DNA of 64,000 nt from Nitrospira sp. GTDB lineage: Bacteria > Nitrospirota > Nitrospiria > Nitrospirales > Nitrospiraceae. The stretch lies in NCBI GenBank assembly GCA_005116745.1, contig SWDS01000006.1, positions 5,223 through 69,222 of the forward strand, read 5' to 3'. Below the pieces are notes generated by a model, which was not told the origin of the DNA, made no database searches, and saw only the letters and a program-made list of their open reading frames with translations. Shown here piece after piece: positions 43,123 to 56,442 of this stretch. A program made the translations under genes and the position numbers. Numbering within the stretch: the first letter of the stretch is position 1; every line of letters begins with the position of its first letter.

Positions 43123-43764
43123 ATGGCGATGATGATAGATCGGTTGAGACAAGTAGCGTGCGCGGTCTTGGTTGTGACCGCAACCGGTTGCCTGTCGCTC
43201 CGTACGGATTCTCCAGAAATCCACACGTATCAGTTGAGCCTTGACGGCTGGAACCGCGAGGCTCGCCATGATGGGATTGCGGAGTCGGTGTTGCTTGTGA
43301 GTCCGCCTCAGGCAGAGCCCGGATTTGAGACGCAGCGCATGGTGTACATGAAGCGCCCATATCAATTGGAAGCGTTTGCCGTCAATCAGTGGGCCGATAG
43401 CCCGGTGCAGATGCTTAGTCCTTTGATGATCCAGGGGCTCAATCACAGTGGGGTATGGCGGGCCGTGATTCCCCTGCCGAGCTCGATTCGAGGGGACTAT
43501 CGCCTGGACTCCTCAGGATTTGTCGTACAGCAGGAGTTTCTCCAGCAACCGAGCCGCGTCAGAGTGACGATCCGTGCGCAATTCGTCGACCTGAAAGAGT
43601 CCATGATTGTGGGAGCGCGGGCCTTTGAAGTGGTCGAGAATGCTCCGAGCGAGAATGCCTACGGAGGTGTGCTGGCCGCCAACCGCGCCGTGGCTGGATT
43701 GCTCGACCAGATCGTGGCATGGCTTCGGCAATGTGTAGAACATTCGCCCGAGTGCAGTCGTTAA
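43123..43764 (+). CDS. ABC-type transport auxiliary lipoprotein (PqiC-like)
   Basis: The 213-residue protein has a short hydrophobic signal (VACAVLVVTATGC) with a lipobox cysteine near residue 22. The body shows the ABC-transport-auxiliary pattern: VLLVSPPQAEPGFETQRMVY with YMKRPYQLEAFAVNQWADSP. Such lipoproteins sit on the outer membrane and receive lipid from MCE proteins, as PqiC does. Its position immediately after mlaD supports that role. The ATG at 43123 is the first in a run and fits the expected signal length. Confidence 0.85.
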   Translation: MAMMIDRLRQVACAVLVVTATGCLSLRTDSPEIHTYQLSLDGWNREARHDGIAESVLLVSPPQAEPGFETQRMVYMKRPYQLEAFAVNQWADSPVQMLSPLMIQGLNHSGVWRAVIPLPSSIRGDYRLDSSGFVVQQEFLQQPSRVRVTIRAQFVDLKESMIVGARAFEVVENAPSENAYGGVLAANRAVAGLLDQIVAWLRQCVEHSPECSR

Positions 43765-43796
43765 AAGGGTGGAGGCGGAATGACGAGGCACCGCCG

Positions 43797-44261
43797 GTGA
43801 GTGAGAATATTTCGTGGAAATGGGTCCTGCTCTCGATCGCGTGCTGTGCCTGCCTGATGTTTGAGCGACAGGCCTGGGGGGTGGAGCCGGTATCGGAACA
43901 TTCAGCAAATCAGCAGCACCGTGTCGTCATGCATCTCAATTCAGGCGACGACAAAGTCCAACGGGGCGCGCTGAATAATATCAGGAACCTCTACCAGGAA
44001 TTAGGGACACACAACCTCACACTTGAGCTAGTCGTGCATGGGGCAGGCCTCCCGTTACTGCTCAAGAAGGGCACGGCATTTGCTGTTGAATTGGCTGATT
44101 TAAAGAAGACATACGGCGTGAACTATACGGCCTGTTCCAATACCATGAAGACGATGCAGGTGATGCGGGAAGATTTAATCAGCGAAGTAGGCGAGACGGT
44201 GCCGGCGATAGTCAGGCTTCTCGAACGACAAGAACAAGGCTGGGCCTATATCAAACCCTAG
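43797..44261 (+). CDS. DsrE-fold protein, exported
   Basis: About 154 residues. From the GTG at 43797 the product begins with a probable signal peptide (KWVLLSIACCACLMF, cleavage near AWG). The mature part has the DsrE/DsrF layout, with VVMHLNSGDDKVQRGALNNI, LTLELVVHGAGLPLLLKKG and a cysteine in NYTACSNTMK. Relatives carry or relay sulfur or act in thiol chemistry. An exported form at the end of the lipid operon is unusual. An OsmC-type gene follows. A cytoplasmic DsrE protein lies at 56083. Confidence 0.7.
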   Translation: MSENISWKWVLLSIACCACLMFERQAWGVEPVSEHSANQQHRVVMHLNSGDDKVQRGALNNIRNLYQELGTHNLTLELVVHGAGLPLLLKKGTAFAVELADLKKTYGVNYTACSNTMKTMQVMREDLISEVGETVPAIVRLLERQEQGWAYIKP

Positions 44262-47321: not shown

Positions 47322-48952
47322 CTAAATGACGTTGGCCAAAGGGGTTGGCTTGCTTTGAGTATCCTCGCCAAGGAAAGCCTCGAGATGCTTTGTCACTTCT
47401 TCCACATGTGGCGCGACAAGGAGCTGTCCTGAATTGCTAGCTGCAACCTGCACGGTCTTGCTCCCTTCGCCACCAAAGTCTGACCAGATACGTCTGGTAT
47501 CCGTTACCGACTGAGCGACATACCGTTTTGATGCCATCATATTGAGAATATGCCCAGGGTATTTGCGAACGTCGTAGCGAGCCACAGCCTGGAGCGTGGC
47601 TCGGGTCACTTGTCCGACTTGGAACTCGACAAGCAGCTCATCCTTAGCGACATTGGTTTGCGATAACGACATGAGTCTCTTGCATTTAGGTTGGAGAAAT
47701 GAAACCCAGTCTTTGACCGGCAAACGAACGAGGCTGGGAATAGTACGCATTATCCTCCACAGTAGATACAGGGGCAGCCCAAATGTCATCGGCAACTTAT
47801 AACGATGTGGGCGATATGTGGATGGATGCCATGTGTCCATTACCACAAGTGTGACGGCCTGTCCCTGCTCGACCAGTTGCTGAGCCATTTCATACGCGAT
47901 CAGTCCGCCGGTGCAGCTGCCAAGGACGGTATACGGCCCGTTCGGGCGAAAGCGACGGATCTGTGCAACATAATGACTCGCCATCTCCGGCACCGATGTA
48001 AACGGCGCCTCTTTTCCGTCTAGTCCTCGTGCCTGTAATCCGTAGGAGGGTTGATTCGGCCCCAGCAGCTTTGCTAGCTGAGCAAAGACCAAGACATTAC
48101 CCCCAACTCCGGGCACCATGAAAATCGGTACTGCAGCCCCGCTGGGCTGAATGGCGACGAGGGATTGCCACGGCGGGACCCACTGGTTTTGTGTCAGCAC
48201 CGCTGTGAGGGTGGCAATGGTCGGGGCTTGAAACAGAGTGGCCAGAGGCAGATGGCGTCCATACACTTGTTCAATGAGATAGAACAACTGGGCGGCTTTG
48301 AGTGAGTGGCCGCCGAGATCAAAGAAGTTGTCGTGAATTCCGATCGGATTGATGCTGAATACCTGCTGCCACAAGGCCGCCATTTGGACGTCGAGATGAT
48401 TGCTCGGTGGGACATGCACGACAGCGGGTGAGGGAGCGAGCGTAGGAGCGGGTAATGCGTTCCGGTCGACTTTGTTATTGGCCGTCAAGGGCATTTCCGT
48501 CAGAAACATGAAGAGCGACGGAATCATGTAATCAGGAATCTGTGCGTGGAGAAATGAACGCAGGTCTGCCTGGCTTGGCATGAGGCCGTCATGGCCGACC
48601 AGATACGCCACCAACTGCTTGCCTCCTTGCTGATCGTCCCGTGCCGTGACGGCCGCCTGACGGACCGCGTGATGACGGCTCAGCGCAGTCTCGATCTCAC
48701 CCAATTCGATCCGATACCCTCGGATCTTGACCTGGTGATCCATCCGACCGAGATGGACGATGCGTCCATCTGAGCGATACCGTGCCACGTCTCCCGTTCG
48801 ATAGAGTCTGGCGAGGGGCTCTGGAGAACATGGATGCGGGATGAACCGCTCCGCTGTTAAGTCAGGCTGCCCCCGATAGCCTCGGGCTAATCCATGGCCG
48901 CCGATATACAGCTCACCGGAGACTCCGATTGGGGCCGGCTGCAGGAATGGAT
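47322..48952 (-). CDS. NRPS remnant: C-terminal half of adenylation domain, carrier domain and thioesterase
   Basis: About 540 meaningful residues. They begin inside an adenylation domain at DPFLQPAPIGVSGELYIGG and continue through RTGDVARYRSDG and the core lysine region (LTANNKVDRNALP). The carrier domain has FFDLGGHSLKAAQ, and a type-I thioesterase follows whose nucleophile elbow is GSCTGG. The frame stays open upstream to 49397, but that part is an out-of-frame shadow of the FAAL-like gene and makes no sense as protein. Condensation and N-terminal adenylation parts are missing. As it stands the gene cannot make an assembly-line enzyme. Confidence 0.8.
48139..48194 (-). repeat. 56-bp exact direct repeat, copy 1 (start of thioesterase domain)
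   Basis: The 56 bases at 48139-48194 recur exactly at 48993-49048, 854 bp apart and in the same orientation. On the minus strand they encode QNQWVPPWQSLVAIQPSG, the linker into the thioesterase. This copy sits in its proper context between carrier and thioesterase domains. Confidence 0.9.
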
Positions 48953-49831
48953 CCCACCCACTCCCGGAACCAAAAACACGGGGATGCCTGATCCGCTGGG
49001 CTGAATGGCGACGAGGGATTGCCACGGCGGGACCCACTGGTTTTGTGTAATCTCCAATCGAGACACCGCCTCCAGCCAACGCAAGGGTCGCCGGAGAAAC
49101 GTGACGGGGGACATCAAATAGGACGGAATCCCGGCATAAAACGGGACGAGGATGCCATGCAGCAATCCATAGTCGTGAAAATACGGCAGCCAGGAGAGCA
49201 TCCGGCTCCCGTCGGATAATCCGCCGGCCCGCTTCAAGGCCTTGCAATGCGCGAGCACGTTTCCATGACTGACCATGGCGCCACGAGGGGTGGCCGTCGA
49301 TCCTGAGGTATATTGCAAATACGCGAGAGAGCTGTTGGCAGGCCGTGAGAACTCGACTGACTCGGCAGCACTGTCGGCCTGATCGGTTGCCATCCACTTG
49401 ATGGGATCTGCAGCTCTTGTGAGTGAAAGCTCCGAAGACAGGGCGTGAATACCTGAGGTTGTGAGTACGAGCGCTGCGTCAGCATCGTCGATAATGGCGC
49501 GCAGTCTCTGCAGACTATGCTTCCGTCTGATGGGGTCGGGAGCCGGAGCAGGAACGGCGATGAGCCCGGCACAAGCACAGGCCCAAAAGGCGCAGGCGAC
49601 GTCGATCCCCTGTGGGTAGAGCAGAAGAATTCTGGTTCCTTGTGGAACCGCCTGGGCGAGATGGCTTGCTAGGGCACGGACTCTCTGCTCAAGCTGGCCA
49701 TAGGTCAGCTGGCTCTCAATCTCGAGGTTGTCACGAATCAGGGCATAGGCCAGCTCATCCGGCTGTTGCCGGCATCGATGCTCGAAGAAATCTGGAAGGT
49801 TGTGGATCGCCCGAGGTGGAAGTTTAGCCAT
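48887..49831 (-). CDS. Truncated fatty-acyl-AMP ligase (FAAL)-like starter domain
   Basis: The first 260 residues match the N-terminal part of FAAL/long-chain acyl-AMP ligases: LLLYPQGIDVACAFWACA, LQYTSGSTATPRGAMVSHGN and WLPYFHDYGLLHGILVPFYA. Instead of the expected FAAL continuation, the sequence jumps at the 56-bp repeat into about 30 residues of a thioesterase start. After the next junction it runs out of frame to a stop. It was probably the lipid-loading starter of a lipopeptide synthetase; the present product lacks the C-terminal half. No good ribosome site precedes the ATG at 49831. Confidence 0.75.
   Translation of the reverse strand: MAKLPPRAIHNLPDFFEHRCRQQPDELAYALIRDNLEIESQLTYGQLEQRVRALASHLAQAVPQGTRILLLYPQGIDVACAFWACACAGLIAVPAPAPDPIRRKHSLQRLRAIIDDADAALVLTTSGIHALSSELSLTRAADPIKWMATDQADSAAESVEFSRPANSSLAYLQYTSGSTATPRGAMVSHGNVLAHCKALKRAGGLSDGSRMLSWLPYFHDYGLLHGILVPFYAGIPSYLMSPVTFLRRPLRWLEAVSRLEITQNQWVPPWQSLVAIQPSGSGIPVFLVPGVGGIHSCSRPQSESPVSCISAAMD
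48993..49048 (-). repeat. 56-bp exact direct repeat, copy 2 (junction in FAAL-like gene)
   Basis: This copy is identical to 48139-48194. It sits abruptly after fatty-acyl-AMP-ligase sequence (LRWLEAVSRLEI) and leads into a second, slightly different thioesterase start (IPVFLVPGVGG). That start is cut at about 48952, where adenylation sequence begins in another frame. Confidence 0.9.
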
Positions 49832-50236
49832 GGATGCGAGACGCAGGCTGCCCTTGAATCGCTAAGAATAACAGCAATCAACTATCTGTCTAACGACGAG
49901 TACAAACTTAGAATAATTGATCATAAATGGGAAGACTTTCTCGTTTTGAAACCGGTTCAGAAATTGACTACCGTGTAGTGTGGCGAGCCCTCTTGCCTGG
50001 AGGAGAAACCCTTTCCGCAAACTGATGCACAGGTCACGCTCTGTTGTGAAGGCTGTAGCATCTTGCGCCAGTGGGCGAGAAGGTCCTGGGGTATTTGTCG
50101 TCAGTTCAGGCCCTAATTCCCAGAACCATCGTAGCAAAACCATATAAATGCTTGACGAATAAGGAGAAAACTCCCTAGATCTCTTGAGAGACAATGGCAC
50201 ATTGATCGCAAGGTTTGGCCCTCGAAGGGAGTGCAA
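49832..50236. promoter_or_regulatory. Divergent intergenic region with a sigma-54-like promoter candidate (50194-50209)
   Basis: This 405-bp gap separates the minus-strand NRPS locus from the plus-strand redox island, so it should hold promoters for both. TGGCACATTGATCGCA at 50194-50209 has the GG-N10-GC spacing of sigma-54 promoters, with one mismatch in the TTGC box. It lies about 28 bp before the start at 50237. The left half is AT-rich. No gene is convincing in it. Confidence 0.4.
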
Positions 50237-50626
50237 ATGCAGATCACACGACGACTGGTAGTCTGTTGCGCAATGTTAGCCGGTCTGTTCGGGCTGGGGT
50301 TCAGCAATCTTGGCGTGAAAGAACTTGCTGTCTCGGCCAAGGGCGGTGATCCAGTCAGTGGACGCGAAATCTACGTGAACACCTGCATCCGCTGCCACGG
50401 AATCGACGGGAAAGGTGCACTCGGAATTAAACTCGTTCCACCTCCGGCGGATCTGACCTCGCTCACCGTTCAAAGTCGCCTCGACGGGACCTTGTTTCGA
50501 CGAATTCATGGAGGAAAACCCAATACCGCCATGGGTGCGTGGAAACATGCGCTCTCCGATGAGGAAATTTGGGATGTCCTGGCCTATGTGCGCACATTCG
50601 GGGTGGAGTCCGGTGGGCAACCATAA
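50237..50626 (+). CDS. Small monohaem cytochrome c
   Basis: The 129-residue protein has a signal peptide (MLAGLFGLGFSNLG region) and one class-I cytochrome domain: haem motif CIRCHGIDG, PPPADLTSL, and the C-terminal helix EEIWDVLAYVRTFG. GGAG lies at the right distance for the ATG at 50237; a GTG at 50231 is too close. It is the first of a run of similar cytochromes and probably carries electrons in the periplasm. The Met ligand may be in the GGKPNTAMGAWK segment. Confidence 0.88.
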   Translation: MQITRRLVVCCAMLAGLFGLGFSNLGVKELAVSAKGGDPVSGREIYVNTCIRCHGIDGKGALGIKLVPPPADLTSLTVQSRLDGTLFRRIHGGKPNTAMGAWKHALSDEEIWDVLAYVRTFGVESGGQP

Positions 50627-50712: not shown

Positions 50713-50931
50713 ATGACGTGCAATGTTGGAGGGATTGAGAGACCTATACGAATTGGAGCAGGGCTGCTGGTCATCATGATCGGCATCTTTGCTGGGCTTT
50801 CGACGGCAGTAGCGGGAACAGCACTTGCGGTGGGGGCCATACTGCTGCTCACGGGAGCGCTGGGATATTGTCCGCTGTTTACGTTGTTCGGAATTAGCAC
50901 CTGCTCTCGGGCGTCCGGTATGAAGAAATGA
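50713..50931 (+). CDS. Two-helix membrane protein, DUF2892-like
   Basis: The 72-residue protein begins MTCNVGGIERPIRIGAG and has two hydrophobic helices with GYCPLFTLFGISTC after the second. This is the DUF2892 pattern with the conserved CP motif. GAGGAGG precedes the ATG. It overlaps or abuts the TsdA-like gene (1-bp gap), so they are co-transcribed. Family members recur beside sulfur-handling genes, and a role in sulfur transfer is possible but unproven. Confidence 0.8.
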   Translation: MTCNVGGIERPIRIGAGLLVIMIGIFAGLSTAVAGTALAVGAILLLTGALGYCPLFTLFGISTCSRASGMKK

Positions 50932-50932
50932 G

Positions 50933-51796
50933 GTGAATGCTGTGAGCCGACCGGTCATTGCAGGCGTCGTGTTGGTGAGTATGTTAGTGGGGACGATCAG
51001 TTGTGTCCCACCTCCACGAGTGACGGAGAGTGAGGAGGGGGTTGTTCGTCGGATCGTGGGGTCGCCAGTCGATGCGCTGTTTGTCCCGCCATCGCCCGAA
51101 ACGATTCCAGGTGATCTGAGAGGCGAGCAGATTCGCCTGGGCTACAAGATGATCGTCGACACGCAGGAATATGGGAAACGGTATGTTGGAAACGCGCTCA
51201 ACTGCACCAATTGTCATTTAGATGCGGGACTCAACCCGAATTCTGCATCCTTCGTCGGTATCGCCACTCTTTACCCACAGTATCGTGAACGAGCCGGCCG
51301 ACAGATGACGCTAGCCGATCGAATCAACGAGTGTTTCGAACGTAGTATGAATGGAAAACCTCTGCCGCCCGACAGCGTAAAGCTCACGGCCATTGTCGCG
51401 TACGTCACATGGTTATCACAGAATATGCCGCCCGGCGTTGAGGTCCCATGGCGAGGAATCCCACGCCTCATCTCGACCCATCAGCCTGACCCTCTCAACG
51501 GCAAAAAGGTCTATGAGAAAAAGTGTGTCTTCTGCCACGGTTCCGATGGGCAAGGCACCATGACGGCACCGCCTGTGTGGGGGCCTCGTTCGTACAACAT
51601 TGGTGCAGGCATGGCACGAATCAGCGTAGCCGCTGCATTTATCAAGGCCAACATGCCGCGAGGCTGGGGCTGGACAGTGACCGATGACGAAGCCATCGAT
51701 GCTGCAGTCTATATCAACACACAGCCTCGACCGGACTTTCCCGACAAGATTCACGATTGGCCGAAGGGCGGCAAGCCGGCGGATGCACCCTATTGA
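50933..51796 (+). CDS. Dihaem cytochrome c, thiosulfate dehydrogenase (TsdA)-like
   Basis: The 287-residue protein has a lipoprotein-like signal (VLVSMLVGTISC). Two cytochrome domains follow: the first with CTNCHLDAG (about residue 90), the second with CVFCHGSDGQG. The NCTNCHLDAGLNPN phrase and the domain order fit the TsdA/SoxA-related family, which oxidises thiosulfate to tetrathionate or reverses that reaction. Whether the special axial ligand is present cannot be told safely. The YeeE/YedE transporter pair and OsmC gene downstream support a sulfur role. Confidence 0.7.
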   Translation: MNAVSRPVIAGVVLVSMLVGTISCVPPPRVTESEEGVVRRIVGSPVDALFVPPSPETIPGDLRGEQIRLGYKMIVDTQEYGKRYVGNALNCTNCHLDAGLNPNSASFVGIATLYPQYRERAGRQMTLADRINECFERSMNGKPLPPDSVKLTAIVAYVTWLSQNMPPGVEVPWRGIPRLISTHQPDPLNGKKVYEKKCVFCHGSDGQGTMTAPPVWGPRSYNIGAGMARISVAAAFIKANMPRGWGWTVTDDEAIDAAVYINTQPRPDFPDKIHDWPKGGKPADAPY

Positions 51797-51905
51797 GATC
51801 GGGAGAGTCGCCTAGGTGACTGTTGAGTTGTGAATGGTGAGCTCACATGAAACACAACATTGTGGCTTTCATACGATATGAACACCGAAGGACGGGAAGA
51901 GGAAG

Positions 51906-52445
51906 ATGATCAATCCTGACACGCACGTTGTTCCAATTTTGCCCTGGTGGGCCGGGGGTCTCGGAATCGGGATTGTTCTGCTCATCGCCGTGGCACTCGT
52001 GCAACCGATCGGAGTCTCGACGCAGTATGTGGTGTTAGACGGTGTGCTGTTGCATGCGCTGAGTCCAGACCTTGCCGATGACAGCCCATATCTCAAGGAA
52101 GCCAGCAAGGGATGGACCTTGGCCACCTACGAATTCTTCTTCGTCATTGGGATCCCCATCGGTGCGTTTCTGGCTGCAGCGATCACGAAACGATTCAGTA
52201 CCCGAGTGGTGCCTCCGCTGTGGGCCTATCGATTTGGACAGGCGCCGGGAAAGCGTCTGGCGTGGTCGTTTATCGGAGGTTTTCTTCTGCTGTTCGGAGC
52301 TCGGTTTGGAGGGGGATGCACATCCGGCCACATGATCAGCGGGGTCTCGCAGTTGGCCGTGAGTTCATTCATTTTTTCAGCCGCGTTGTTTGCCAGTGCA
52401 ATTGTTACGGCCCGCTGGTTGTACCCTGAGCAGGTGAAACAGTGA
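51906..52445 (+). CDS. YeeE/YedE-family membrane protein, N-terminal half type
   Basis: The 179-residue membrane protein has about four helices and carries the signature GARFGGGCTSGHMISGVSQL of YeeE/YedE transporters, in which the cysteine participates in thiosulfate passage. Full-length family members have two such halves in one chain; here the halves are separate genes overlapping by 4 bp (this and the next). It is likely an importer of thiosulfate or another sulfur species across the inner membrane. GGAAGAGGAAG precedes the ATG. Confidence 0.85.
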   Translation: MINPDTHVVPILPWWAGGLGIGIVLLIAVALVQPIGVSTQYVVLDGVLLHALSPDLADDSPYLKEASKGWTLATYEFFFVIGIPIGAFLAAAITKRFSTRVVPPLWAYRFGQAPGKRLAWSFIGGFLLLFGARFGGGCTSGHMISGVSQLAVSSFIFSAALFASAIVTARWLYPEQVKQ

Positions 52446-52972
52446 ACTTGCTTCTAGGGCTCCTTCTTGGAGCGGCTTTTGGCGCGGTCCTCCAACTCTC
52501 CGGGGCGTCGAGCTATACAAAGATCCTCAACACCTTGCGGCTCAAAGACTTGACGATCATGAAGGTCATCATGACAGCCATCGGTGTCGGGTTGATCGGG
52601 GTTCATGGATTGGATGCGTTGGGTGTCGCTCATCTGAAGGTCAAGGATCTCTATCTCCCGGGGATCCTCATCGCAGGCGTGATCTTCGGCGTGGGATTTG
52701 CCGTCACGGGCTATTGTCCAGGGACAGCGCTCGCGGCGGCGGCTGAAGGGAAGCTCGATGCGTGGATGACGATGCTCGGCGGCTTGCTCGGCGCATTGAC
52801 GTTTGCCTTCCTATTTCCGGATCTCGAGTCGTCTTTAGCCGCATTGGGGGGATTCGGTCCGGTGACGATTCATGACTCGATTGGGATAAGCGGGCTATTT
52901 GTGGCAGGGCCATTGGGCCTGCTGTGTTTGTGGGGAGCAGCGAAACTCCCAGAACCACGAGGGACACGATGA
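52442..52972 (+). CDS. YeeE/YedE-family membrane protein, C-terminal half type
   Basis: The 176-residue membrane protein is the partner of the preceding gene, starting at a GTG that overlaps its stop (GTGA). The signature here is FAVTGYCPGTALAAAAEGK, the second conserved cysteine motif of the YeeE/YedE fold. Together the two would form one transporter. Its stop overlaps the start of the OsmC gene (ATGA), so the three genes are translationally coupled. Confidence 0.85.
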   Translation: MNLLLGLLLGAAFGAVLQLSGASSYTKILNTLRLKDLTIMKVIMTAIGVGLIGVHGLDALGVAHLKVKDLYLPGILIAGVIFGVGFAVTGYCPGTALAAAAEGKLDAWMTMLGGLLGALTFAFLFPDLESSLAALGGFGPVTIHDSIGISGLFVAGPLGLLCLWGAAKLPEPRGTR

Positions 52973-53385
52973 AACTCACGGCGACCTTTCACGGCGGGAC
53001 ACGCTACGACGTTGTGAGTGGCAAGCATCGAATTATTACCGACCAGGCGGTGGAGGATGGAGGGCAGGATGCCGGAATGGGTCCGGTCGAACTCTTTGTC
53101 GGGTCCGTCGCGAGTTGTGTGGCGTACTTCGTCGGGCAATTCTGTGGGCGGCACGGCATTTCCCGAGAGGGCTTGATGGTCGATGCGGAATGGACGATGG
53201 CCGAAGTTCCACACCGTGTTGGTCGCATCGACATCGGGATTCATCTACCCCATCGCATCAACGCAGAACAAAAAGAACGCCTCTTGAAGGTCGCGCATGG
53301 CTGCACTGTGCATCAATCCCTCGCGGTGCCTGCCGGCGTGGCGATCGAACTCAATCCTCATCCTCGTGGTGAGAAATCCTCGTGA
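52969..53385 (+). CDS. OsmC-family protein coupled to the YeeE/YedE pair
   Basis: The 138-residue protein has OsmC features: GMGPVELFVGSVASCVAYFV and KVAHGCTVHQSLAVP, each with a cysteine. The ATG at 52969 overlaps the upstream stop. OsmC-type proteins reduce hydroperoxides, and some relatives act on persulfides. Coupling to a putative sulfur importer suggests handling of reactive sulfur rather than general peroxide defence; that is inference. Confidence 0.85.
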   Translation: MKLTATFHGGTRYDVVSGKHRIITDQAVEDGGQDAGMGPVELFVGSVASCVAYFVGQFCGRHGISREGLMVDAEWTMAEVPHRVGRIDIGIHLPHRINAEQKERLLKVAHGCTVHQSLAVPAGVAIELNPHPRGEKSS

Positions 53386-53396
53386 AAGGAGCAGCG

Positions 53397-54806
53397 ATGT
53401 TGAATGTGAGAATTCGGATGGTCGTTGGAAGCGCTGCGCTCATGTTGGTGGGACTCATGTCGTCCCCGCAATTGTCATTTGGGAGCGATCACACGCGCGC
53501 GAAGGAGCTGATCCAACAGACCTGTGTGCAATGTCACCGGCTGGAAGGTCAGCCGGATTCGCGCTTCAAGCTTCACGCGCCTGACTTGATGTGGGCCGGC
53601 AGCAAGTACCAACGGTCGTGGCTCATCCGTTGGTTGACCGGTAAGGAAGCTCCGCTCTATGCGAAGGGATATATGTGGGACCTGACCACCGTTCCGTCCA
53701 AGCACCCGATGGTCACGGAGTCGGAGGCGAACGCACTCGCGGATTACTTTGCCGAACACAACAAAGATCCGCGCGTCACCATCGGCGCGTTCGATCTCTC
53801 GAAAGTCACCAAATTCGACGTGAAGTTTGGTGCGGCGGCTTTTAAAGCCCACGCCTGTCTTGGCTGCCACACGATCGAGGAGAACGGCAAGTTGATCGGA
53901 GGGCCACAGAGCGCGGCATTGCAGAAGTCTGGTCAACGGTACGACAAGGACTGGCTGTTTCGGTTCGGATTGAACCCGCAAGACTTCACGCCACACAGCG
54001 GCGAGTTTTTAGCAGATGCCACGGAGCCGCAACTGCGTGCCGTGATCGGCTATCTCATGGTTCAAGGAGTCCCGGACTTTCAGTACTACGAGCCATGGAC
54101 AAGCCGTGAATTCGAGATGGCCAGCGTGGATCGAGGGAAGGTGGTTTATAGAGAGTATTGTTCGCAGTGTCACGGTCCAACGGGCAAAGGCGACGGACCA
54201 GCAGCTTCCGGTCTGGAACCAAAACCGGCGATACATGCCAACATTCCATTCGAAAAGCTCCCGATCGAATACCTCTACAACGTCATCAATCATGGCGGAC
54301 CGGCAGTAGGCAAATCGCCGAACATGCCCTATTGGAATTTGACGATCGGTCAACAGGGCGTGGCGGATGTGATTGCCTATTTGAAAGTGACATTCAAGGG
54401 TGTGCCGGATCTCGCCACTGCACCAGGAGATGGTCAGGGCAGTGCGTGCGTGCAACCGAGAAAGACAGCCAAGGCGCCGGGCGATTCCCTGAGCAAAGCG
54501 AATCCAGTTCCAGCTTCTGCCGGTTCAATCCAGGCGGGCAAAGAGCTCTTCCTGAAAACGGCCCAGCCGGTCGCCTGTGTCATGTGCCATGGTGAGCAAG
54601 GTGATGGCAAAGGGGTGATGGGCGCAGCCCTGATGCCGCCACCACGAAATTTTACCTGTGGCGCGATGATGAAAGACTTACCCGATGGGCAACTGTTCTG
54701 GATCATCAAGAATGGTTCTCCAGGAACAGGCATGATGCCGTTTGGCACATTGCCGGATGAGCAGGTGTGGCAACTCATCCATTACATCAGAAGTCTAGCT
54801 AAGTAG
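53397..54806 (+). CDS. Tetrahaem c-type cytochrome made of tandem monohaem domains
   Basis: The 469-residue exported protein has a signal peptide (ending SFG) and four haem motifs: CVQCH, CLGCH, CSQCH and CVMCH. Each sits in its own cytochrome domain. The last domain (from about 375) closely resembles the cytochrome at 57568: both have PPPRNF- or PSPRNF-like and NGSPGTGMMPFG-like phrases, and a helix ending LIHYIRS. AGGAG lies 5 nt before the ATG at 53397; an earlier GTG at 53382 overlaps the preceding stop. It probably gathers electrons in the periplasm. The donor is unknown. Confidence 0.88.
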   Translation: MLNVRIRMVVGSAALMLVGLMSSPQLSFGSDHTRAKELIQQTCVQCHRLEGQPDSRFKLHAPDLMWAGSKYQRSWLIRWLTGKEAPLYAKGYMWDLTTVPSKHPMVTESEANALADYFAEHNKDPRVTIGAFDLSKVTKFDVKFGAAAFKAHACLGCHTIEENGKLIGGPQSAALQKSGQRYDKDWLFRFGLNPQDFTPHSGEFLADATEPQLRAVIGYLMVQGVPDFQYYEPWTSREFEMASVDRGKVVYREYCSQCHGPTGKGDGPAASGLEPKPAIHANIPFEKLPIEYLYNVINHGGPAVGKSPNMPYWNLTIGQQGVADVIAYLKVTFKGVPDLATAPGDGQGSACVQPRKTAKAPGDSLSKANPVPASAGSIQAGKELFLKTAQPVACVMCHGEQGDGKGVMGAALMPPPRNFTCGAMMKDLPDGQLFWIIKNGSPGTGMMPFGTLPDEQVWQLIHYIRSLAK

Positions 54807-54850: not shown

Positions 54851-55345
54851 ATGAGAGTGCATCGATCTGGGGCGGCGAAGTCAGCCGTGGTGCTTGCTGT
54901 CGCTGCGTGGGCGGTATTGGCTGGTAGTCATGATCGTGCCTATGCACAGGCTGCGGGGATGGCAGCGCCGCCCTCCAAGGTGGAGATCATCATCAAGGAT
55001 CGTCAGCATGGCTATGAGACTGCCGGGTTCACGATGCCGTCGCAGGAGACGATCATCGTTGTCCGAAACCAGGATTCCGTCACGCACGGGTTGGCGTCCG
55101 CGTTGTTCAAGAATATTCCCGTGAAGGTGGAAGGTGGTCTCGAAGTGCGAGGAAAACAGTTCAAGGCCTTTCATGTCGATGCGGGAAAGACCATGACACT
55201 CCGTTTTGCCACGGCGCCCACGAACTTCGATCCGATGACAGGTGGAGCCGAAAGTGTGCGACACGCCCTATGGTGCGACATCCATCCTGAAGTGAAAGGA
55301 GAACTGTTTGTCATTGAAACCCGAGGGGATGTCGGAGGGGGCTGA
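54851..55345 (+). CDS. Periplasmic cupredoxin-like protein
   Basis: The 164-residue product has a signal peptide (VVLAVAAWAVLAGSHDRAYAQ) and a single beta-sandwich domain. The candidate copper ligands are a histidine in SVTHGLASA and the Cys/His of HALWCDIHPEVKGEL near the C-terminus; the usual fourth ligand methionine is not obvious. AAGGAGG lies 7 nt before the ATG at 54851. It could shuttle electrons between cytochromes or bind copper. A second cupredoxin follows at 55544. Confidence 0.75.
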   Translation: MRVHRSGAAKSAVVLAVAAWAVLAGSHDRAYAQAAGMAAPPSKVEIIIKDRQHGYETAGFTMPSQETIIVVRNQDSVTHGLASALFKNIPVKVEGGLEVRGKQFKAFHVDAGKTMTLRFATAPTNFDPMTGGAESVRHALWCDIHPEVKGELFVIETRGDVGGG

Positions 55346-55543: not shown

Positions 55544-56011
55544 ATGAACTGGGTCAGGAGACGCTCCGCTCATCTCGCGGTCATATATCTTGGACTGGTG
55601 GTCAGTACAGGTTCGCTTGTCATGCCGCTCACCGGATGGGCGAAGGAGATTGCCTTTGTGGCACGTGATGTGGAAGATCAGCAAGCGGTGTGGCTTCCCA
55701 GTGAAATCATCATTCACCGCAGCACGGATTTCAGGGAGCCGTTGATTTTTCGGTTTGATAATCCAACTGTACGGACTCATGTGTTCGAAGCCCCGGGGTT
55801 GTTTGAGTCGGTAGAGGAAAACGGTGCTCGGATCACCAGGCCGGTTCGGATTACTATTGCGCCAGAGGGGACCGAGCAGAGCGTAATCGACAGGGACCGG
55901 ATGGCGAGCGATGTGATCGCTGCCGAGGGGGAGACGGTGACCTATCGATTCTACTGTCCTCTCCATCGAGCCGATGTAGATCTAGGGGGCAGAGTTATTG
56001 TGGGGCAATAG
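55544..56011 (+). CDS. Second cupredoxin-like exported protein
   Basis: The 155-residue protein has a signal peptide (LGLVVSTGSLVMPLTGWA). Its cupredoxin-like domain has a histidine in VRTHVFEAPG and Cys/His in FYCPLHRADVDLGG, the type-1 copper arrangement without an evident methionine ligand. AAGGAGACC precedes the ATG. It follows a strong terminator, so it probably starts a new transcript leading into the DsrE and PPK2 genes. Confidence 0.7.
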   Translation: MNWVRRRSAHLAVIYLGLVVSTGSLVMPLTGWAKEIAFVARDVEDQQAVWLPSEIIIHRSTDFREPLIFRFDNPTVRTHVFEAPGLFESVEENGARITRPVRITIAPEGTEQSVIDRDRMASDVIAAEGETVTYRFYCPLHRADVDLGGRVIVGQ

Positions 56012-56082: not shown

Positions 56083-56442
56083 ATGGCAACGTTCATTATT
56101 TCAGGTAGTCGAGGAACGGACGACCCCACAATGGCAACATTGCCGTTCATGGCGGCGAAGACGGCGAAAGAGCAGGGGCATGATGTCGTGCTCTGGCTGT
56201 GGAACGAAGCCGTCACCTTGGGTCGGAAAGGTGTCGCTGATCATATCACCGGTGTAAACCTGACTCCGTTGAAAGAACTGCTTGCCGCCATCCAGGCGGC
56301 AGGTGTGCCGGTCTGGGTTTGTGGTGCCTGTGCCGTGGCTAGACAGGTTAGTGCGACTGATCTCGTGGCCGGCGCATCCATCAAGGGGATGCCGGACTAT
56401 ATCAAAGCTGTGGCCGAGCGCGATCGAAACGTGATGTTCTGA
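56083..56442 (+). CDS. Cytoplasmic DsrE-family protein
   Basis: The 119-residue protein lacks a signal peptide. It has the DsrE fold pattern: FIISGSRGTDDPTMATLPFM, VVLWLWNEAVTLG and a cysteine pair in VWVCGACAVARQV. Such proteins accept or transfer sulfane sulfur, like TusD/DsrE and peroxiredoxin-like DsrE proteins. AAGGAG precedes the ATG. The gene lies 27 bp before ppk2. In context with the TsdA-like and YeeE/YedE genes, it supports a sulfur-handling programme in this island. Confidence 0.85.
   Translation: MATFIISGSRGTDDPTMATLPFMAAKTAKEQGHDVVLWLWNEAVTLGRKGVADHITGVNLTPLKELLAAIQAAGVPVWVCGACAVARQVSATDLVAGASIKGMPDYIKAVAERDRNVMF

Follow-up and report, generated by a model that had tools for sequence, protein, structure and literature searches.

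The genus Nitrospira includes major nitrite oxidisers as well as the known comammox bacteria. The locus described here is a putative sulfur gene cluster of such an organism, built around a TsdA-family protein. It lies in a stretch of 64,000 nucleotides (the window) of a Nitrospira contig, in which five consecutive genes had been predicted to form a compact module for the oxidation, uptake and safe handling of reduced sulfur.

Gene content of the cluster and its host

All five ORFs were found at positions 50713-53385 on the plus strand, each with a Pfam match above the cut-off that backs its predicted family. The last three are joined by overlaps of 4 bp (GTGA between PmpA and PmpB, ATGA between PmpB and OsmC), whereas the first three are merely adjacent, with gaps of 1 bp and 109 bp. 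The series had been taken to end at 53385, but the unit runs on, with conserved linkage to a DsrE-family gene at 56083-56442. The genes are as follows.

50231-50626, plus strand: monohaem cytochrome c (Pfam Cytochrome_CBB3, 47 bits; one CXXCH)
50713-50931, plus strand: DUF2892 / YgaP-like_TM protein of 72 aa (PF11127, 66 bits)
50933-51796, plus strand: TsdA (SoxA-TsdA_cyt-c, 54 bits, plus Cytochrome_CBB3; 4wq7, E 2e-56)
51906-52445, plus strand: PmpA, the YeeE_C half (Sulf_transp, 77 bits)
52442-52972, plus strand: PmpB, the YeeE_N half (Sulf_transp, 59 bits)
52969-53385, plus strand: OsmC-family protein (PF02566, 43.6 bits)
53397-54806, plus strand: tetrahaem cytochrome c (four CXXCH; Cytochrom_C, 110 bits)
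54851-55345, plus strand: exported cupredoxin-like protein (without Pfam or NCBIfam match)
55544-56011, plus strand: second exported cupredoxin-like protein (without Pfam or NCBIfam match)
56083-56442, plus strand: DsrE-family protein (PF02635, 73 bits)

The monohaem cytochrome is a possible electron carrier. The DUF2892 protein has three conserved cysteines: among 55 relatives, Cys3 and Cys64 are each present in 53 and Cys53 in 54. The tetrahaem cytochrome gene has a possible GTG start at 53382, which the OsmC stop codon overlaps; the ATG at 53397, with its good ribosome-binding site, is likelier. Both exported proteins look like cupredoxins from a His/Cys pattern read by eye. No RNA families were found within the window, and a scan of it for promoters and terminators gave a result about equal to that for shuffled sequence.

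Two features lie upstream of the cluster. An exported DsrE-family protein is encoded at 43719-44261, 6.5 kb away, and its homologue sits between tsdA and pmpA in four related loci (L091, L144, L157 and L158). An NRPS-like region on the minus strand (47322-49831) looks rearranged: a repeat of ∼56 bp, starting at 48139 and again at 48993, is identical in two of its ORFs, and the similarity of the upper one to relatives is limited to its N-terminal 264 residues. The region may be recombined or a collapsed assembly.

The host had been taken for a Nitrospira-like nitrite oxidiser. Its 3.86-Mb genome (99.96% complete) encodes AmoA (PF02461, 332 bits) and AmoB (PF04744, 494 bits), preceded by a partly masked ORF at the position expected for AmoC. 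The organism is therefore a comammox Nitrospira, and the amo genes rule out a purely nitrite-oxidising host. The NarH C-terminal model PF14711, used as a proxy for NXR, gave no match and is uninformative for Nitrospira NXR. The named sequences closest to its TsdA come from Nitrospira MAGs, among them CG24B. SoxB had no match in the source genome, which argues that TsdA is not a Sox accessory; SoxY likewise gave no match, as did the control set for that search. Three tusA homologues are present, all away from pmpAB, and DsrA yielded only a weak match, below the cut-off, in a sulfite-reductase-like ORF. In an unusual 836-aa ORF (L121:1717-4227, G000:C6), a part resembling sulfite/nitrite reductases is fused to a TusA domain at the C terminus.

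Identity and active site of TsdA

In phmmer comparisons the dihaem protein matched solved TsdA over residues 45-275, nearly the entire exported part (E 2e-56), as against residues 91-171 for SoxA (E 4e-7). Score, coverage and residues exclude SoxA or another dihaem cytochrome. The protein has an N-terminal export signal, and the TsdA of relatives is probably a lipoprotein, as judged by eye.

Ligands were counted after aligning 81 Nitrospiraceae TsdA sequences with that of Allochromatium vinosum. The cysteines and histidines of the two CXXCH motifs (Cys49, Cys52, His53, Cys160, Cys163 and His164) are invariant in all 81, as are Cys96, the axial ligand of the catalytic haem 1, and Met209, the distal ligand of haem 2. 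Arg99 is likewise kept in 81 of 81 and Arg82 in 80, while Arg92 is kept in 75 (Gln in six) and Ser100 in 72 (Asn or Gly in nine). The window protein has Arg82, Arg92, Ser100, Gly194 and Arg197, whose equivalents in the A. vinosum enzyme touch the bound thiosulfate or lie beside it (PMC4423706). Arg82, Arg92, Cys96 and Ser100 would correspond to Arg109, Arg119, Cys123 and Ser127 of the precursor in that paper, given an inferred offset of 27 from the positions used here. The Gln found in six relatives stands at Arg92, a residue called invariant in TsdA and SoxA; the activity of relatives with Gln92 or with Asn or Gly at 100 may differ.

The protein thus resembles A. vinosum TsdA (4wq7, 4v2k) in its full-length homology, two c haems, haem 1 Cys, Arg82/Arg92/Ser100 and Met209. 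In contrast, Lys208 of the A. vinosum enzyme, a haem 2 ligand in the oxidised state, is Asn in the window protein and at that position in 79 of the 81 Nitrospiraceae sequences. The resulting Lys-x-Asn-Met haem 2 pocket and the haem 1 Cys are shared, by published description, with Campylobacter jejuni TsdA, which belongs to another organism and context and probably has another acceptor.

A 62-row tree unites the Nitrospirota TsdA proteins (SH-aLRT 98) and places the window sequence inside the genus. Two long-branched sequences, from a Nitrospirota MAG (L181) and from Aneurinibacillus (L199), nest inside this group, and one origin of the Nitrospirota proteins appears likely. An A. vinosum plasmid match was left out of the references as a broken paralogue. 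Phylogeny and axial ligands, both among the checks proposed with the original prediction, place the protein inside TsdA with its ligands present, and the refuting outcome named there, a protein outside TsdA that lacks its ligands, did not arise; on these sequence grounds it is a bona fide member of the family, as the “TsdA-like” label had suggested. One genome has an additional, incomplete tsdA-like sequence that is interrupted by a stop codon (G042:C8:321874-322287) and is likely a decaying copy.

Transporter, OsmC and the conserved neighbourhood

The predicted thiosulfate-type importer is indeed a two-gene YeeE/YedE system, of the split PmpB/PmpA type as far as its sequence indicates. PmpA (179 aa) and PmpB (176 aa), for which crude hydropathy gives three and five segments, align to residues 240-325 and 4-118, respectively, of Spirochaeta thermophila TsuA (6leo, 8j4c). 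PmpA Cys138, the equivalent of TsuA Cys293, and PmpB Cys92, that of TsuA Cys91, are kept in 24 of 24 loci. Inspection of the TsuA alignment revealed no equivalent in PmpB of the third cysteine, Cys22, which in TsuA sits at the TsuB interface. Unlike TsuA, a single chain of 330-350 aa with Cys22 and TsuB, the window system is split and lacks both: no tusA or tsuB adjoins pmpAB. The two halves score 44 and 40 bits against the NCBIfam TsuA model, far below its cut-off of 400. For these reasons thiosulfate is a possible cargo, but a guess, and the thiosulfate-specific part of the claim is weakened. The closer parallel is the PmpA/PmpB pair of Serratia and the short YeeE/YedE proteins (PMC11582611), for which the cargo under discussion is sulfur-containing ions or zero-valent sulfur; the layout of adjacent genes for C- and N-terminal halves, with one shared Cys each, is the same, although those proteins measure ∼130 aa with four transmembrane helices each.

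Where found (24 loci), pmpAB always lies between tsdA and osmC. An NTGA stop/start overlap within the pair occurs in all 24, and the pair overlaps osmC by 4 bp in 19, a regularity that goes beyond chance. PmpA was detected at orthologue level in 25 genomes, all of them with tsdA. Presence of PmpAB switches 14 times on the TsdA tree, and the identities of PmpA and PmpB track that of TsdA (Spearman 0.63 and 0.70), a combination that fits mostly vertical descent with repeated loss. Import appears dispensable, since close relatives with TsdA 90-97% identical (L034-L036) lack PmpAB.

For the downstream gene, predicted to encode a thiol peroxidase-like protein, membership of the OsmC family is supported by the Pfam match and by Cys50, Cys59 and Cys112, invariant in 76 of 76 sequences; the nearest solved chains are weak matches and partly uncharacterised. 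Cys50 and Cys112 are presumably the redox pair, as in the family at large.

In total, TsdA occurs in 100 of 147 Nitrospiraceae genomes (81 of the 109 good ones) and in 39 of the 46 with amoA; amoA-bearing genomes with tsdA belong to two genera. The tetrahaem cytochrome is present in 108 genomes. Among the 81 loci, osmC follows tsdA in 76, the tetrahaem cytochrome gene is linked to tsdA in 76, with the linkage spanning several genera, and a DsrE-family gene lies downstream in 69. Upstream of tsdA, the monohaem cytochrome gene is linked in 45 loci and the DUF2892 gene adjoins in 39. The cupredoxin-like gene at 54851-55345 is optional (14 of 81 loci), and that at 55544-56011 is similarly confined to a minority. 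The arrangement of PmpAB, OsmC and tetrahaem cytochrome was absent from the sampled tsdA loci outside the Nitrospirota. These counts describe a real, conserved sulfur locus made of known families.

In many relatives (L148, L042, L049 and others), genes for a molybdoenzyme and a dihaem cytochrome lie between osmC and the tetrahaem cytochrome gene. The molybdoenzyme is a close homologue of SorA (2blf, E 8.6e-72). SorAB is missing from the window and from nearly all amoA-bearing relatives: a SorA orthologue was found in 70 of 101 genomes without amoA versus one of 46 with it (Fisher p 7e-16 on raw genomes, relatedness ignored). Relatedness leaves few independent events, so this contrast is only a pattern; of the independent pairs five are well supported, with 0 going the same way and a mean of 2.6 the opposite way, and the sign test is not significant. 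Mutual exclusion as an evolutionary rule was accordingly dropped. The fullest version of the cluster belongs to the cultured nitrite oxidiser N. moscoviensis (L148), in the order DsrE-like, DUF2892, TsdA, PmpA, PmpB, OsmC, SorA, SorB, cytochrome, DsrE and PPK2. A 2025 comparison of the Nitrospirales describes SorAB as confined for the most part to lineage IV; whether the SorA homologue of N. moscoviensis and other genomes falls under the definitions used there is worth checking.

Proposed direction and benefit of thiosulfate conversion

On the best reading, the cluster would turn thiosulfate into tetrathionate in the periplasm, either to gain supplementary electrons or for detoxification. We favour, with moderate confidence, a fuller scheme of a periplasmic sulfur-oxidation module in Nitrospira, which starts from the observed family identities, ligands and conserved linkage and adds a direction, an electron acceptor, a cargo and a benefit that we infer. 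TsdA would convert two thiosulfate into one tetrathionate at the Cys/His-ligated haem 1, via a cysteine S-thiosulfonate, and the electrons would pass from haem 1 to haem 2 (His/Met), then to the tetrahaem and monohaem cytochromes c and on to a terminal oxidase, the tetrahaem protein being the probable acceptor within the cluster. Import into the cytoplasm, of thiosulfate or of sulfane sulfur, would fall to PmpA/PmpB, and reactive sulfur and thiols would be dealt with by OsmC, DUF2892 and DsrE. Where SorAB is present, as in many relatives that oxidise nitrite, it would then oxidise sulfite; the comammox lineage of the window has TsdA without SorAB. The thiosulfate/tetrathionate couple, given as +198 mV in passages of PMC9562282 and PMC5146829, suits donation at the level of cytochrome c. 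No enzyme for further use of tetrathionate was recognised in the cluster, and the Asn before the haem 2 Met, as in C. jejuni TsdA, counts against oxidation. From the predicted oxidation, uptake and handling of sulfur, TsdA and the sulfur or thiol families of its neighbours are retained, while importer type and extent of the unit are revised. The sequence is compatible with energy gain as well as detoxification, and with either direction of TsdA.

The cluster might instead chiefly clear forms of reactive sulfur that inhibit nitrification (thiosulfate, persulfides and products of sulfide), with a minor energy gain. OsmC with its invariant cysteines and the PmpAB and DsrE families would suit such a role, and thiosulfate is in use as a nitrification inhibitor (PMC6091914). 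However, these families take part in energy metabolism in other settings, the several cytochromes c of the cluster suggest respiratory coupling, and the inhibitor may be tetrathionate itself, which TsdA would produce. We consider this explanation unlikely.

Somewhat less probable again is a reversed TsdA: when oxygen is low, tetrathionate would serve as an electron sink and be reduced to thiosulfate, with quinol or cytochrome c as the donor. TsdA enzymes work in both directions, and the Lys-x-Asn-Met pocket is that of the C. jejuni protein, which acts as a tetrathionate reductase in vivo (PMC5146829). Yet the Asn is common, occurring before the haem 2 Met in 23 of 29 non-Nitrospira TsdA sampled, for which reason the haem 2 ligand was discarded as an indicator of direction, and exchange of the Asn in the C. 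jejuni enzyme set direction in no simple way (PMC5146829). Moreover, the SorAB and cytochrome genes that share the cluster suggest an oxidative role, and +198 mV fits poorly with electrons from nitrite oxidation. That the genes are adjacent by history alone, without forming a functional unit, is very improbable: the cupredoxins, DUF2892 and PmpAB do come and go, but the tsdA-osmC and tsdA-cytochrome linkages hold in 76 of 81 loci across several genera and the NTGA overlap in 24 of 24.

Extending the oxidation scheme to the family as a whole, we put forward a distinctly more tentative proposal: thiosulfate oxidation could be an ancestral, widely kept accessory lithotrophy of the Nitrospiraceae, comammox members included, encoded in one locus (TsdA, PmpAB, OsmC, SorAB and the tetrahaem cytochrome), of which comammox lineages dropped the sulfite branch and kept TsdA. 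If so, aerobic nitrification would be tied directly to the sulfur cycle. Should TsdA work as proposed, most Nitrospiraceae genomes would encode a source of electrons that could tide cells over a shortage of ammonia or nitrite, as well as a means of acting directly on thiosulfate, which is also applied in farming to inhibit nitrification. The locus suggests that an ammonia-to-nitrate oxidiser and most of its relatives can draw electrons from, or resist, reduced sulfur. The question is testable at once, since N. moscoviensis, with the fullest cluster, is in culture.

All parts of the cluster belong to known families; its setting and breadth in Nitrospira are what has been little noticed. No description of TsdA in Nitrospira, or of the arrangement or breadth of the cluster, was found in the open-access literature searched. 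The 2025 comparison of the order gives SQR and SorAB as sulfur genes and leaves TsdA unmentioned in its main text. One paper reports thiosulfate oxidation “via the sox pathway”, and there only for clade B among groundwater comammox MAGs (PMC10504367); here TsdA occurs without SoxB in the source genome, and also in amoA-bearing genomes of two genera. A precedent among nitrite oxidisers is Ca. Nitrotoga of Lake Erie (PMC9239080), which carries tsdA with sulfur transport genes; it is a Betaproteobacterium, however, and its tsdA region is ecotype-specific rather than family-wide.
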